Of a stretch of DNA of 64,000 nt, positions 20,350-33,571 are shown in pieces. The stretch is from Clostridia bacterium (GTDB lineage Bacteria; Bacillota; Clostridia; Monoglobales; Monoglobaceae). Location of the stretch: the NCBI GenBank assembly GCA_017397725.1, contig JAFQIA010000028.1, positions 124,001 through 188,000 on the forward strand. Direction: 5' to 3'. Both the position numbers and the translations under genes were made by a program. The notes beneath the pieces were generated by a model. That model did no database searches and had not been told where the DNA came from. It saw only the letters and a list, made by a program, of their open reading frames with translations. Every line of letters starts with the position of its first letter. The first letter of the stretch is position 1.

Positions 20350-21279
20350 CTATATGATTGAAAAAATTAGCGGAATCGTTATACAAGAAAGCAAATGAGA
20401 AATTACTGCCATACCTGCTGCAACCGTTGTATCCTTGCCAAACGCGCTTGGAATAACAATTGTATTAAGTCCAAGAGGCATTGCAAGGGAACAAAGGGCA
20501 CAGATATAGGTTGTTTCAGGAATTTTGAAAAAAGATGCCACTGATATGAAAAGGATAGGCATAATAATAAGCCTTATAATCGAAACAATATAAATTCGTA
20601 CATTTAAAAAAGTTTTTTTCAGGGATATAGATGATACCACCACTCCGGTAAGAATCATGGCAATCGGTGACATGCAATCTCCCGATACATTTATCAGTGA
20701 CATAGTCCACTCAGGAAGATGAATTCTTGATAGACCAATTAACATACCTATCAGCATCGCTATAAACATAGGATTAACAAAAGATTTCATAGATTCCGTA
20801 AATGTATGTTTTTTACCTGAATCTGCAATAAGAAGCTTTGGTACTCCCCAGGTATATATAAAAATCCACAAAGGCAGCGTAAAAATCAGGTATTCAAAAA
20901 AGATATCCGGGAACAAGCTGCACACCACTGCATTTCCCATGAACCCAAAATTCGAAAATGACAACCCATAAGTATAAATTCTTCGAATATACTTATCTTT
21001 TGTAACCGATTTGGAAACCAAAATCGCAAACGGGATTGCAATACACGCTATTACAAAACTTACGGACAATAGTTTCCATGTGGCACCAATTCTCTCTATG
21101 GTAAAGTTTTCGATAAATGTTCCCATAACAAGTGCAGGTATAAAAACTGTGTTTTCCAGTTTTGATAAAACCATAGCAGAATTTTCGGGCAATACTTTAA
21201 GCTTAACAAGAATGTACCCTATAACGATAAACCCAAAAAGAAAAGATATTTGACTTAATGTGGTTATAAAAACACTCAT
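20350..21279 (-). CDS. AEC family transporter (auxin efflux carrier/malate permease type)
   Basis: 309-residue membrane protein with about ten predicted helices and the AEC layout: two five-helix halves around a polar central loop. The start MSVFITTLSQISFLFGFIVIGYIL at 21279 overlaps the preceding stop (ATGA); the longer frame to 21315 has no support. Family members export or import organic acids. In this carbohydrate-linked island a uronate- or carboxylate-type substrate is plausible but inferred. Third gene of the RpiR-phosphodiesterase-AEC operon. Codon use is more AT-rich than outside the island. Confidence 0.85.
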   Translation of the reverse strand: MSVFITTLSQISFLFGFIVIGYILVKLKVLPENSAMVLSKLENTVFIPALVMGTFIENFTIERIGATWKLLSVSFVIACIAIPFAILVSKSVTKDKYIRRIYTYGLSFSNFGFMGNAVVCSLFPDIFFEYLIFTLPLWIFIYTWGVPKLLIADSGKKHTFTESMKSFVNPMFIAMLIGMLIGLSRIHLPEWTMSLINVSGDCMSPIAMILTGVVVSSISLKKTFLNVRIYIVSIIRLIIMPILFISVASFFKIPETTYICALCSLAMPLGLNTIVIPSAFGKDTTVAAGMAVISHLLSCITIPLIFSII

Positions 21280-21776
21280 TCTTCCACATCGCTTATAAGC
21301 GATTTTCCCTCCCATTCTTTTGCCGGGGCAACCCCTATAATGTCTGCTATTGTCGGTGCTATATCAAGAATACTTACCCCTATATACTCTCTTCCGGGTA
21401 CAAATTGAGGATCATAAAAAATCATTGGTATTGTCATATCCTCATCCATATCGCTTCCATGTGATCTGTCATTTCCACCATGGTCGGCTGTCACAATTAC
21501 TGTATATTCTCCGTTTGTTTCTTCAATCACTCTTTTTACATTGCTGATTGGTCGTACCTGCGGCGTATATGCATTAGTGGTCGTGCCGTGTCTTTCCGGC
21601 AAAACACTATGAAACATTGACATATGGCAAGGAAGTGTAGCAGACGGAAATACTGTTCTTGCATCAAAAGTATAGGATGCCATTTTCTTTAGCTCATCAA
21701 CATAAGGATTTTTACATTTCATAAGTCCATCCGGACGCATACCATCAATCGAAATTAAAATAACCTTGTTATTCAT
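21276..21776 (-). pseudogene. Alkaline-phosphatase-superfamily (phosphodiesterase/pyrophosphatase-like) protein lacking its centre
   Basis: 166 residues, against roughly 260-270 in intact relatives as I recall them. The N-terminus has the first metal site ISIDGMRPD and the nucleophile region FPSATLPCHMSMFHS. The C-terminus has the metal site TADHGGNDRSHG. After VRPI (near residue 77, position about 21540) the sequence jumps straight to the helix before TADHGG, so the central segment with the second Asp/His metal ligands is absent although the frame is kept. It could be an inactivated gene or a reduced protein. Between RpiR and AEC genes in one operon. Confidence 0.65.
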
Positions 21777-22758: not shown

Positions 22759-22870
22759 CTGGTTCAAAACCGCATGGCATCTACCCTTTTGTTTTCAAAA
22801 CTGATTTTCCCCAAAAAGCCTCAAGCCATAGAAAAAAGCGAACAATTCAGATGACATCTAAATTGTTCGC
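22759..22870. repeat. Diverged repeat preceding repeat copy A
   Basis: The stretch starting TCTGGTTCAAAACCGC and ending with AAAAAGCGAACAATT is a diverged version (roughly 70% by eye, with gaps) of 27371-27460. In this copy it ends in an inverted repeat AGCGAACAATT...AATTGTTCGCT (22837-22871) that can form a hairpin next to the 234-bp repeat. Confidence 0.6.
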
Positions 22871-22876
22871 TTCTTT

Positions 22877-23110
22877 TGGCTCCTCCAGTTGGACTCGAAC
22901 CACGTCCGTTTGCAACATCAATTCAATTGCGCCGTCAAGCGGCTTATTTCATTGTGTTGCGGCACCACCTCCGCGCTCCCTGTTTCGTCCACCGGACGCC
23001 GTCGCTGCTCGGTCCCCTGCGTCCGCAAGCGGCTCGCAGGTTCGTTGGTTCGGTTTCACCGAAAAGAAAATCACAAAGGGATACACATTTGTGTATCCTT
23101 TTGTGATTGG
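22877..23110. repeat. 234-bp direct repeat, copy A (contains tRNA-Asn 3' fragment)
   Basis: Near-identical to 27633-27866, with only two substitutions seen by eye (C/G near 23000 and T/C near 23100). The first 24 bases equal the 3' end of tRNA-Asn (minus sense), and the last 40 bases form the same long hairpin that terminates tRNA-Asn in copy B. There is no tRNA body here. It holds no credible gene: all frames are short, and the same spurious peptides would recur in both copies. Confidence 0.9.
23069..23108 (-). terminator. Long hairpin inside repeat copy A
   Basis: 19-base arms (AATCACAAAGGGATACACA and its complement, one mismatch or G-U pair) followed on the minus strand by a T-rich tract. 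Same structure as the tRNA-Asn terminator, here without a tRNA in front. Confidence 0.6.
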
Positions 23111-23332
23111 AAGAGCCGAATGGTTTAGATGCCACCTCTGAAAGTCTTATTTTATCAAGCTTTTTAAGGTTCGATCCAATATGTTCAAAACAAGCGAATG
23201 AGACGGAGGATTTAGATGCATTTCGCTAAACTTCAGTCGAATCAAAAATTTGTGGGGGCAATATTCAAATGAAAAACAATCTCCAAGGAGTCTAGATACC
23301 ATAATTGGATTTATACGAATCAAGACTGTTCG
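23111..23332. other. Noncoding stretch after repeat copy A
   Basis: No gene recognised. It holds CCGAATGGTTTAGATGCC (23116-23133) and GGATTTAGATGC (23208-23219), members of a short motif family that recurs in intergenic DNA of this window. Confidence 0.5.
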
Positions 23333-27370: not shown

Positions 27371-27460
27371 TGGTTCAAAACCACTTATCTTCTCCCATTT
27401 ATTTCAAAGTTGATTTTTGCAAGAAGCCCTTAAAACCACGGAAAAGCGAACAATTTAGAT
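27371..27460. repeat. Diverged repeat preceding repeat copy B
   Basis: Begins TCTGGTTCAAAACCAC and ends GGAAAAGCGAACAATTTAG, matching 22759-22850 with gaps. It shows that the duplicated unit around the tRNA-Asn 3' end originally extended beyond the 234 well-conserved bases. Confidence 0.6.
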
Positions 27461-27599
27461 GCAAGTTAAACAAGTTTAGCGTTATGATGAAACCTTACGG
27501 TTTTAGTTATGATATATTTGCCCAAAAAAGCATTGACGAAGTCAATTCATAACTTGCGAAGCAATCTAAACTGATAACTTGCCGTAGGCAAATATAACT

Positions 27600-27632
27600 G
27601 AAAAAGCACTTGCAAATTGCAAGTGCTTTTTC
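27600..27632. terminator. Hairpin beside repeat copy B
   Basis: Perfect 13-bp stem (AAAAGCACTTGCA/TGCAAGTGCTTTT) with an AAT loop and T-rich end, directly adjoining the left edge of repeat copy B. Confidence 0.7.
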
Positions 27633-27866
27633 TGGCTCCTCCAGTTGGACTCGAACCACGTCCGTTTGCAACATCAATTCAATTGCGCCGTCAAGCGGCT
27701 TATTTCATTGTGTTGCGGCACCACCTCCGCGCTCCCTGTTTCGTCCACCGGACGCGGTCGCTGCTCGGTCCCCTGCGTCCGCAAGCGGCTCGCAGGTTCG
27801 TTGGTTCGGTTTCACCGAAAAGAAAATCACAAAGGGATACACATTTGTGTATCCCTTTGTGATTGG
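27633..27866. repeat. 234-bp direct repeat, copy B (abuts intact tRNA-Asn)
   Basis: Matches 22877-23110 at all but two positions by eye. Its first 24 bases (27633-27656) duplicate the 3' end of the tRNA-Asn at 27864-27887 exactly. A 231-bp cassette is therefore bounded by two copies of the tRNA 3' end, as left by integration at a tRNA attachment site. No integrase is present. Confidence 0.9.
27821..27863 (-). terminator. Terminator of tRNA-Asn
   Basis: Immediately after the tRNA CCA on the minus strand: 19-base arms AATCACAAAGGGATACACA and complement, then TTTTCTTTTC. It lies inside repeat copy B. Confidence 0.8.
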
Positions 27867-27939
27867 CTCCTCCAGTTGGACTCGAACAAAAGACCCTGAG
27901 GTTAACAGCCGCATGCTCTACCGACTGAGCTATAGAGGA
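27864..27939 (-). tRNA. tRNA-Asn (GTT)
   Basis: 76 nt including encoded CCA. Acceptor TCCTCTA pairs with TGGAGGA (one G-U or mismatch at the inner end). The D-arm is GCTCAGTCGGTAGAGC, the anticodon loop CTGTTAA has anticodon GTT, and the T-arm has GTTCGAGTCC. The anticodon stem has one C-T mismatch as read (TGCGG/CCTCA). It resembles other bacterial tRNA-Asn genes closely. The 3' half is duplicated at 27633 and 22877. Confidence 0.93.
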
Positions 27940-32389: not shown

Positions 32390-33571
32390 ATTGAATCCAC
32401 CGGTATAGGCATCCACATCCAGAATCTCTCCGGCAAAGTAAAGACCGGAAATCAGTTTGGATTCCATGGTCGAGGGATTGACCTCCTTGACGCTGACTCC
32501 GCCGGATGTGATAATCGCCTGTTCAATCGGGCAGAATCCGGTAATGTGAAATTCCAGATTTTTTAAGATTTTCCCAAGTAAGCTCCGTTCCTCTTTGGTG
32601 ACGGAGTTTACTTTTTTATAAGGGTCAATTCCGCTGATGGCAATCACCTCCGGAATCAAACGAATGGGTAAAAGTGCACCCAAGCTGTTCCGAAAATCCC
32701 GATTCAGGTTTTTCTGGAAATCCCGCAAAATCCGCTCATCCAACTGCTTTTCATCCAGCGCCGGCTTTAAGTCCAGTACCAGTCGATATTCTTCCTTGCC
32801 CATATTACGCATATGGGCACTGGCACTCAGCACCGTAGGTCCGGTCAGTCCAAAGTGTGCAAACATCATCTCGCCAAAGTCGGCGTAAACCTTTTTCCCT
32901 CTTCCATCCAGAACAGTAAGTGCAACATTTTTTAAGGAAAGTCCCGCAAGCGCAGAAACCCAATCCTCCTCCACCTCTAAAGGCACCAAGGAGGGACGGA
33001 TGTCAGTAATGGTATGACCAAAATTTTCCGCAAAGGTATAGCCGTCACCGGTGGAACCGGTTTTCTGGTAAGAAAGTCCTCCGGTTGCCAGAATCACACG
33101 ATCGGCAAAAATCTTGCCACGCTTTTCGGTGAGAACCCCGCAAACAGCACCATCCTCCGCCAGAATATCATCCACTCGGTCGCAAATCAGTTCCACATTG
33201 TTTTGAATGAGAAATTGACGCATCGCCGTCACAATATCCTGACTTTTGTCCGAAACAGGGAAGACCCGCTCTCCCCGTTCTACCTTGAGCGGAACGCCTA
33301 AGGATTCAAAAAACGCCATGGTCTGTTGATTGGTAAAACCATAAAAGGCGCTATACAAAAAGGAGCCGTTGGTGGGAACATTCTGAATCAAATCCTGCAC
33401 ATCCTCACAGGCATTGGTCACATTGCAACGGCCTTTTCCTGTAATCATCAGCTTTTTGCCCAGCATCTTATTCTGTTCTATCAGTTTGACCTTATGTCCC
33501 CGCTGGGCTGCAACACCTGCCGCCATCATTCCGGCAGGACCGCCGCCAATGACAATCACCTGCTTACTCAT
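32342..33571 (-). CDS. HI0933/YhiN-type NAD(P)/FAD-dependent oxidoreductase
   Basis: 409-residue flavoprotein. The N-terminal dinucleotide-binding motif is GGGPAGMMAAGVAAQRG, followed by the family stretch GKKLMITGKGRCNVTNAC. ATGGLSYQKTGSTGDGY lies in the middle, with a C-terminal GGFNLQIAFSTGHLAG FAD segment. The reaction in this family is not settled (bile-acid dehydrogenase BaiN is one relative). It is convergent with the acyltransferase gene. Confidence 0.9.
   Translation of the reverse strand: MSKQVIVIGGGPAGMMAAGVAAQRGHKVKLIEQNKMLGKKLMITGKGRCNVTNACEDVQDLIQNVPTNGSFLYSAFYGFTNQQTMAFFESLGVPLKVERGERVFPVSDKSQDIVTAMRQFLIQNNVELICDRVDDILAEDGAVCGVLTEKRGKIFADRVILATGGLSYQKTGSTGDGYTFAENFGHTITDIRPSLVPLEVEEDWVSALAGLSLKNVALTVLDGRGKKVYADFGEMMFAHFGLTGPTVLSASAHMRNMGKEEYRLVLDLKPALDEKQLDERILRDFQKNLNRDFRNSLGALLPIRLIPEVIAISGIDPYKKVNSVTKEERSLLGKILKNLEFHITGFCPIEQAIITSGGVSVKEVNPSTMESKLISGLYFAGEILDVDAYTGGFNLQIAFSTGHLAGSCC

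Follow-up and report, generated by a model that had tools for sequence, protein, structure and literature searches.

A folding repeat with tRNA-matched arms beside a clostridial tRNA-Asn gene: a candidate unit of a non-autonomous mobile family

The tRNA-Asn locus and its cassette

The DNA studied here (the window) is a stretch of 64,000 nucleotides from a genome of the Clostridia. A tRNA-Asn gene lies on its minus strand and, as the first-pass annotation had reported, the last 24 bases of this gene are repeated 231 bp away (start to start): the sequence TGGCTCCTCCAGTTGGACTCGAAC is found in exact copies at 27633–27656 and 27864–27887. By our own arithmetic the chance expectation of a 24-bp exact repeat inside 1 kb is ∼1e-9. 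The features of the locus are listed in Table 1.

Table 1. Features of the tRNA-Asn unit and of its second copy (window positions).
Feature	Position	Strand	Remarks
tRNA-Asn(GTT)	27864–27939	-	adjoins the unit; two T-stem mismatches in this assembly
Terminator-like hairpin 3′ of tRNA-Asn	27825–27864	-	
Antisense arm A	27793–27808	-	complements variable loop and 5′ strand of T stem of tRNA-Asn
Short sense arm S1 (CGCAGG)	27772–27777	-	pairs with arm A, judged from sequence and folds
Conserved structured core	27663–27771	-	covariance model R1, 116.2 bits
Sense arm S2	27633–27658	-	copy of tRNA-Asn 3′ end, T arm to CCA
Second terminator-like hairpin, 3′ of S2	27600–27632	-	
Second copy of the unit, no tRNA there	22869–23110	-	98.3% over 242 bp; core 22907–23015; S2 22877–22900

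Hairpins with T-runs follow both tRNA 3′ ends and are terminator-like on the minus strand; the one next to the gene corresponds to the tRNA terminator already placed in the enclosed DNA. The absence of an enclosed gene also holds: the inner ORF (27617–27862) has no Pfam match, and the enclosed DNA has no Rfam match at gathering scores besides tRNA. What had gone unseen were the antisense arm within the cassette and the second copy of the unit (98% identical), which was found by searching the window's own genome and lies 4.76 kb off in the same window.

A lax Rfam search (cmscan, E up to 5) of seven unit-bearing loci returned 42 rows. Apart from tRNAs the sole match at gathering level is Gut-1 at 1149–1227 of locus L009, outside the unit; the remaining rows were taken as chance, nothing convincing falls on the core, and RtT gave no match in these seven clostridial loci. 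We thus rejected a known Rfam RNA or a group I/II intron, the core matching neither at gathering scores nor at E up to 5 in the seven loci. A protein-coding cassette was set aside given that the inner ORF lacks a Pfam match and the core covaries as helices, and a phage origin given that BLAST searches of phage and plasmid sequences matched essentially the tRNA part (best 20 rows of 230 and of 54 records).

Ten neighbouring proteins encoded between 20.3 and 32.4 kb, the interval separating the two copies included, were scanned: a transporter, a phosphodiesterase remnant, an RpiR regulator, a TIM-barrel isomerase-like protein, a GH28 enzyme, an AraC regulator, a radical-SAM protein and its lyase, an acyltransferase and the small cassette ORF. 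The radical-SAM protein is read as pyruvate formate-lyase activator (pflA). None of the ten is a recombinase or integrase, in agreement with the description of the cassette as lacking an integrase; nor is there one among them near the second copy, where a tyrosine recombinase had been thought worth seeking.

Several further features were noted around the two copies. The phosphodiesterase remnant (21276–21776, 166 aa) matches the first part of one profile and the last part of a related one, which is what an internal deletion would leave. At 32458–32541 ARAGORN reports a tRNA-Val(gac) beside or inside a coding region; it has no Rfam match and is probably false. Palindromic pieces (TTTAGATGC / GCATCTAAA) occur near both copies (22840–22880, 27440–27470 and 23180–23240), one of them being the hairpin 3′ of the second copy. 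Orphan copies in genomes G000 and G020 have a common upstream stretch like GCATCYRAAYCATTYGGCTCTTCCAA, ending at the expected position of the tRNA CCA (window 23110–23140; L009 1–300; L037), and a stretch similar to GCATCYRAAYCATTYGGCTCTTCCAA is also found 5′ of the second copy in G047 (L059).

The window is 99.9% identical to a 3.1-kb contig (L063) whose genome is assigned to another family. Because of this identity L063 most likely derives from the same population, or reflects a binning error. Relative to the L063 gene, the window tRNA-Asn shows three G to T differences, two of which break the T stem; for this reason the exact match of arm S2 extends over 24 nt of the window tRNA-Asn and over 26 nt of that in L063. 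Arm A scores a weak 8.5 against the window tRNA-Asn and a clear 15.5 against the L063 tRNA. The three changes may mark a decayed gene or an assembly error; an additional tRNA-Asn is present at G000:C1 (L003).

Fold and distribution of the core

The core (∼110 bp, described by covariance model R1) contains six covarying helices. In an alignment of 98 matches (95 distinct), which was fitted to R1 and is hence biased towards its pairs, 21 of 22 pairs show double changes that keep the pair; paired cells reach 95.9% (64.2% when shuffled), and covariation is 0.715 versus 0.205, dropping below 0.08 when the partner is slid by one column. Folded as single-stranded DNA, the window unit has a z-score of -3.46.

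G-U pairs are rare. They make up 19 of 1281 standard pairs in the core (1.5%), a count that covers 14 of the 22 pairs, columns 11–49 and helices 5 and 6 being excluded, versus 100 of 956 (10.5%) in tRNA stems; across all 22 pairs they number 35 of about 1854 (1.9%). The tRNA control comprises the acceptor and T stems, read at fixed positions, of 81 distinct tRNAs from the same loci that are 75–77 nt long and end in CCA, others having been dropped. This scarcity points to a hairpin at the DNA level: few G-U pairs would be the outcome of selection or repair on DNA hairpins, and this is the main reason for which we prefer a DNA element. Among the features compared, low G-U pairing is the one shared with the attC sites of integrons, which IntI recombines as a folded bottom strand. 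Within the core G-U outnumbers A-C (19 versus 5), which suggests a lean to one strand, although RNA would give that too; the excluded pair at columns 11–49 holds 13 A-C, and counting them shrinks the lean.

R1 finds matches in 14 of 38 genomes of the family, 14 of 51 of the order and 47 of 391 of the class. Units at tRNA-Asn with a core match are present in 6 of the 38 family genomes (G000, G020, G027, G033, G035 and G036), so that the general conservation at this tRNA which the first-pass annotation had named as contrary to mobility is not seen. By DNA search of these 38 genomes the tRNA-Asn unit was found in four besides that of the window, and in others the GC-rich part beside tRNA-Ser. In genus g4 (L024 202–642; L027) tRNA-Asn is followed by a different tandem repeat, of 182-bp units with a 62-nt tRNA piece, that does not contain this core.

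Copy number varies widely: the window genome has two core copies, and R1 finds 2 in Gemmiger, 7 in an Elusimicrobia genome, 37 in F. longum and 44 in Faecalibacterium An122 (the last two being drafts). The exact pattern occurs in at least 117 stretches of named genomes, of which the 80 listed were used. Nearly all listed titles are Clostridia-type MAGs; also listed are isolates of Faecalibacterium and of Gemmiger, and a single Elusimicrobia genome. In the phylum of the latter the pattern is found in 1 of 99 genomes, with 7 matches; the seven core matches lie downstream of two tRNA-Gly genes, one tRNA-Thr and one tRNA-Glu.

Copies are near-identical at three loci of G172, and one core is nested within another (L284). 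In two genomes a core lies at the 3′ end of guaA (L090 1501–1605; L125 99–203), its outer stem extended by gene-end sequence. At L071 (1501–1615) the core adjoins a mobC-like and a relaxase-like ORF, and is thus likely to be near a transfer origin; the gene labels at L090 and L071 are our own reading.

tRNA-matched arms and placement beside tRNA genes

Two mirrored types of unit are found. A 3′-type unit begins with the intact tRNA and a terminator, followed by the antisense arm, the short sense arm and the core, and closes with the sense tRNA 3′ end and a further terminator. A 5′-type unit runs from a tRNA 5′ part through the core to a short sense stretch, then to an antisense stretch and the leader, and ends in the intact tRNA; units of this type precede tRNA-Arg, Glu, Ser, Pro and Leu genes that are intact. 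The core sits at the D, anticodon or T loop of the tRNA. Tandem units occur, and one tRNA-Pro (G326:C8) has units on both sides. In G036 the sequence 3′ of the unit resembles that 3′ of the tRNA, as if the tRNA 3′ end and terminator had been duplicated; two 5′-type units, one of tRNA-Arg and one of tRNA-Glu, have a tRNA piece with a changed anticodon loop.

The arms follow the neighbouring tRNA. Specificity was scored for 48 of the 59 tRNA-linked cores described below (same strand, gap at most 130 bp): the unit's own tRNA outscores all of 14 other types in 41 of 48 units for the sense arm and in 39 of 48 for the antisense arm, leaving 7 and 9, respectively, in which the neighbour is not singled out. 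The antisense misses include the window arm (8.5 for its own tRNA, 10.5 for the best other), a miss that we ascribe to the three G to T differences in its tRNA. In 5′-type units the antisense stretch is often short, and in 5 of 9 tested the own tRNA scores equal to or below the best other.

A rival reading of the cassette is an attachment scar. Under that reading the two tRNA 3′ ends are the attL and attR of a tyrosine-recombinase element whose gene-bearing part has been lost. The directly repeated tRNA 3′ end is as expected of such elements, a related genome has an empty site (see below), and further copies stand at the guaA gene end, which is known as an integrase site. However, an integrase within or adjoining the element is missing from the ten proteins scanned, what lies between the repeats is a core, conserved and structured, that is present at many sites, and the antisense arm reaches past the direct repeat. 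Moreover, several units are enclosed in 5′ tRNA pieces, an arrangement not expected of integration at a tRNA 3′ end. We consider a scar improbable. The conserved, structured state of the core, together with the lack of a recombinase among the ten proteins, likewise speaks against a decaying integrative element. Of the three possibilities first raised for the cassette it is the very small non-autonomous element that fits: in many genomes the core is found next to a wide range of tRNA species, at guaA and scattered elsewhere.

Placement was surveyed in two sets that overlap in part, each tandem copy being counted on its own. The class set (96 cores) joins the stronger rows of the class search to the family and order matches, many of the weakest class-search rows having been dropped before their surroundings were inspected. 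A tRNA gene lies within 350 bp of 59 of these cores, on the same strand in 58 instances and on the opposite strand in one; the same-strand tRNA is upstream of 47 cores and downstream of 11. As the other 37 have no tRNA within 350 bp (nine of them with under 350 bp of upstream sequence), tRNA loops are not the only sites. The pattern set (110 cores) has a same-strand tRNA within 350 bp in 30 instances, an opposite-strand tRNA in none, and no tRNA in 80. The sole opposite-strand core, at L108 306–411 (G277:C8:235055–235160), is beside tRNA-Ser.

This near-absolute same-strand placement beside tRNAs (58:1 and 30:0) would fit a role at the RNA level too. The unit might be a functional RNA made from tRNA transcripts, in the manner of RtT, by read-through of the terminator or, in the 5′-type, by co-transcription, its antisense arm pairing with the neighbouring tRNA or precursor and tuning processing or amount. 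Covarying helices, an antisense arm that fits the neighbour in 39 of 48 units, 5′-type units directly upstream of an intact tRNA, and the annotation of rttR as a small RNA at E. coli tyrT are all in keeping with this. Set against it are the scarcity of G-U pairs, the terminator-like hairpin between tRNA and unit in the window, the 80 of 110 copies away from tRNAs, the up to 44 copies per genome and the patchy occurrence among close relatives. Such an RNA seems to us a doubtful explanation of the unit, but the strand bias is reason to take it seriously.

Gain and loss can be followed at tRNA-Asn itself. G019, a 99% complete genome of the same genus, has tRNA-Asn on the same strand as pflA, ∼3 kb apart, without the unit, and R1 finds no core in this genome at E 0.01: an empty syntenic site, of the kind that the first-pass annotation expected of a mobile cassette. 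G033 and G035, which belong to another genus, share with the window the position of the unit at the junction of tRNA-Asn and pflA, and in the window lineage the unit thus looks partly vertical. G021 retains a worn remnant 3′ of tRNA-Asn. On the strength of these three observations, the unit at this site has either been inherited and lost, or been gained repeatedly.

Known relatives and a proposed origin

The repeats that follow E. coli tyrT were recognized decades ago, and we know of no accepted origin for them. The 178-bp repeats at tyrT/tyrV (RtT RNA, rttR, tpr) have a layout in common with the present units: intact tRNA, spacer, antisense T-arm stretch, hairpin core and sense tRNA 3′ end, in tandem. 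At tyrT–tyrV the antisense T-arm stretch is accompanied by a hairpin of the tandem-GA kind, and the sense 3′ end is that of tRNA-Tyr. An Elusimicrobia unit has a tandem-GA hairpin as in Clostridia and 20 of 21 bases of a 3′ segment as in E. coli tyrT. Like the RtT repeats, the units described here end in a tRNA 3′ end; the antisense T-arm stretch, defined here from tyrT, is clear in most 3′-type units and weak in the window, where the tRNA is mutated. R1 gives no match to the E. coli tyrT locus (L038) at E 0.01; the scan that scored the window and E. coli loci covered 85 sources, and a further one 98 loci. Because R1 misses the E. coli locus we speak of likeness to the tyrT repeats, not of membership.

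REP sequences and REPINs, with their RAYT transposases, are likewise short, high-copy, folding, extragenic and non-autonomous in the parts of the accounts consulted (PMC3116915, PMC8266576). If the units were REPIN-like and mobilized by a Y1 (RAYT) transposase, this could account for extragenic palindromes at high copy (37 and 44 per genome, as against 2 in the window genome) and for DNA-type pairing, and rttR of E. coli is listed among REP-bearing sRNAs in the portion seen of the RepRanger paper (PMC12306157). The present units differ in their larger two-domain core, in their tRNA-tailored arms and in their strand bias towards tRNAs. Furthermore, Y1 has no match in the draft of F. longum, which holds 37 copies, and the family genomes, which are drafts, show no link between Y1 and core (a Y1 transposase in 6 of 14 core-positive versus 9 of 24 core-negative genomes). 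A GTAG-type motif at the foot of the hairpin is a further mark of REPIN/RAYT families. Membership of such a family is very unlikely.

Rickettsia palindromic elements are palindromes of ∼100–150 bp that enter genes, including RNA genes; they are not known to carry target-matched arms. We found no description of a tRNA-linked repeat family of this kind in the open-access literature searched. A survey of structured RNAs in the human microbiome mentions palindromic candidates and REPs and, in the part consulted, names no family linked to tRNA genes (PMC8040213).

We rejected simple unequal crossing-over of the tRNA 3′ end as a full explanation, since copies of the core stand next to unrelated tRNAs and also at places distant from any tRNA. 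The explanation that we favour, at a probability of roughly 55%, is that the cassette represents a folding mobile repeat, widespread and non-autonomous, that lands in tRNA loops. From the sequences compared here we infer the following course of events. The core would fold as single-stranded DNA on the tRNA-coding strand and, so folded, would enter the unpaired loops (D, anticodon, T) of tRNA genes. Viable events would be those that keep an intact tRNA through local duplication, either of the tRNA 3′ end with its terminator or of the tRNA 5′ end with its leader, and a fold-back antisense stretch would form on the truncated side. Unequal crossing-over may then build arrays or delete units. The window would accordingly hold one tRNA-linked unit and one orphan copy. 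Against this reading, neither excision nor a circular form nor a transposition event was observed.

The enzyme that mobilizes such a repeat would act in trans. A reverse transcriptase is present in three of four genomes tested and absent from the Elusimicrobia genome with 7 copies; with no consistent link to the core, both reverse transcriptase and Y1 transposase were rejected as the mobilizer.

More tentatively, the units may constitute a distinct class of mobile element, of which the E. coli tyrT repeats would be an early-found relative: one that invades the loops of tRNA genes and rebuilds its sense and antisense arms from the target at each landing, so that both arms would differ from one tRNA species to the next, the folding core being preserved across phyla. 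If so, an explanation would be at hand for many 'tRNA 3′ end repeats', which readily pass for integration scars, and tRNA annotation and assembly may be disturbed by such units. If the E. coli tyrT repeats share a class with this family, which is present in about one in eight of the class genomes (47 of 391), their origin would become testable by comparative genomics and mobility assays.
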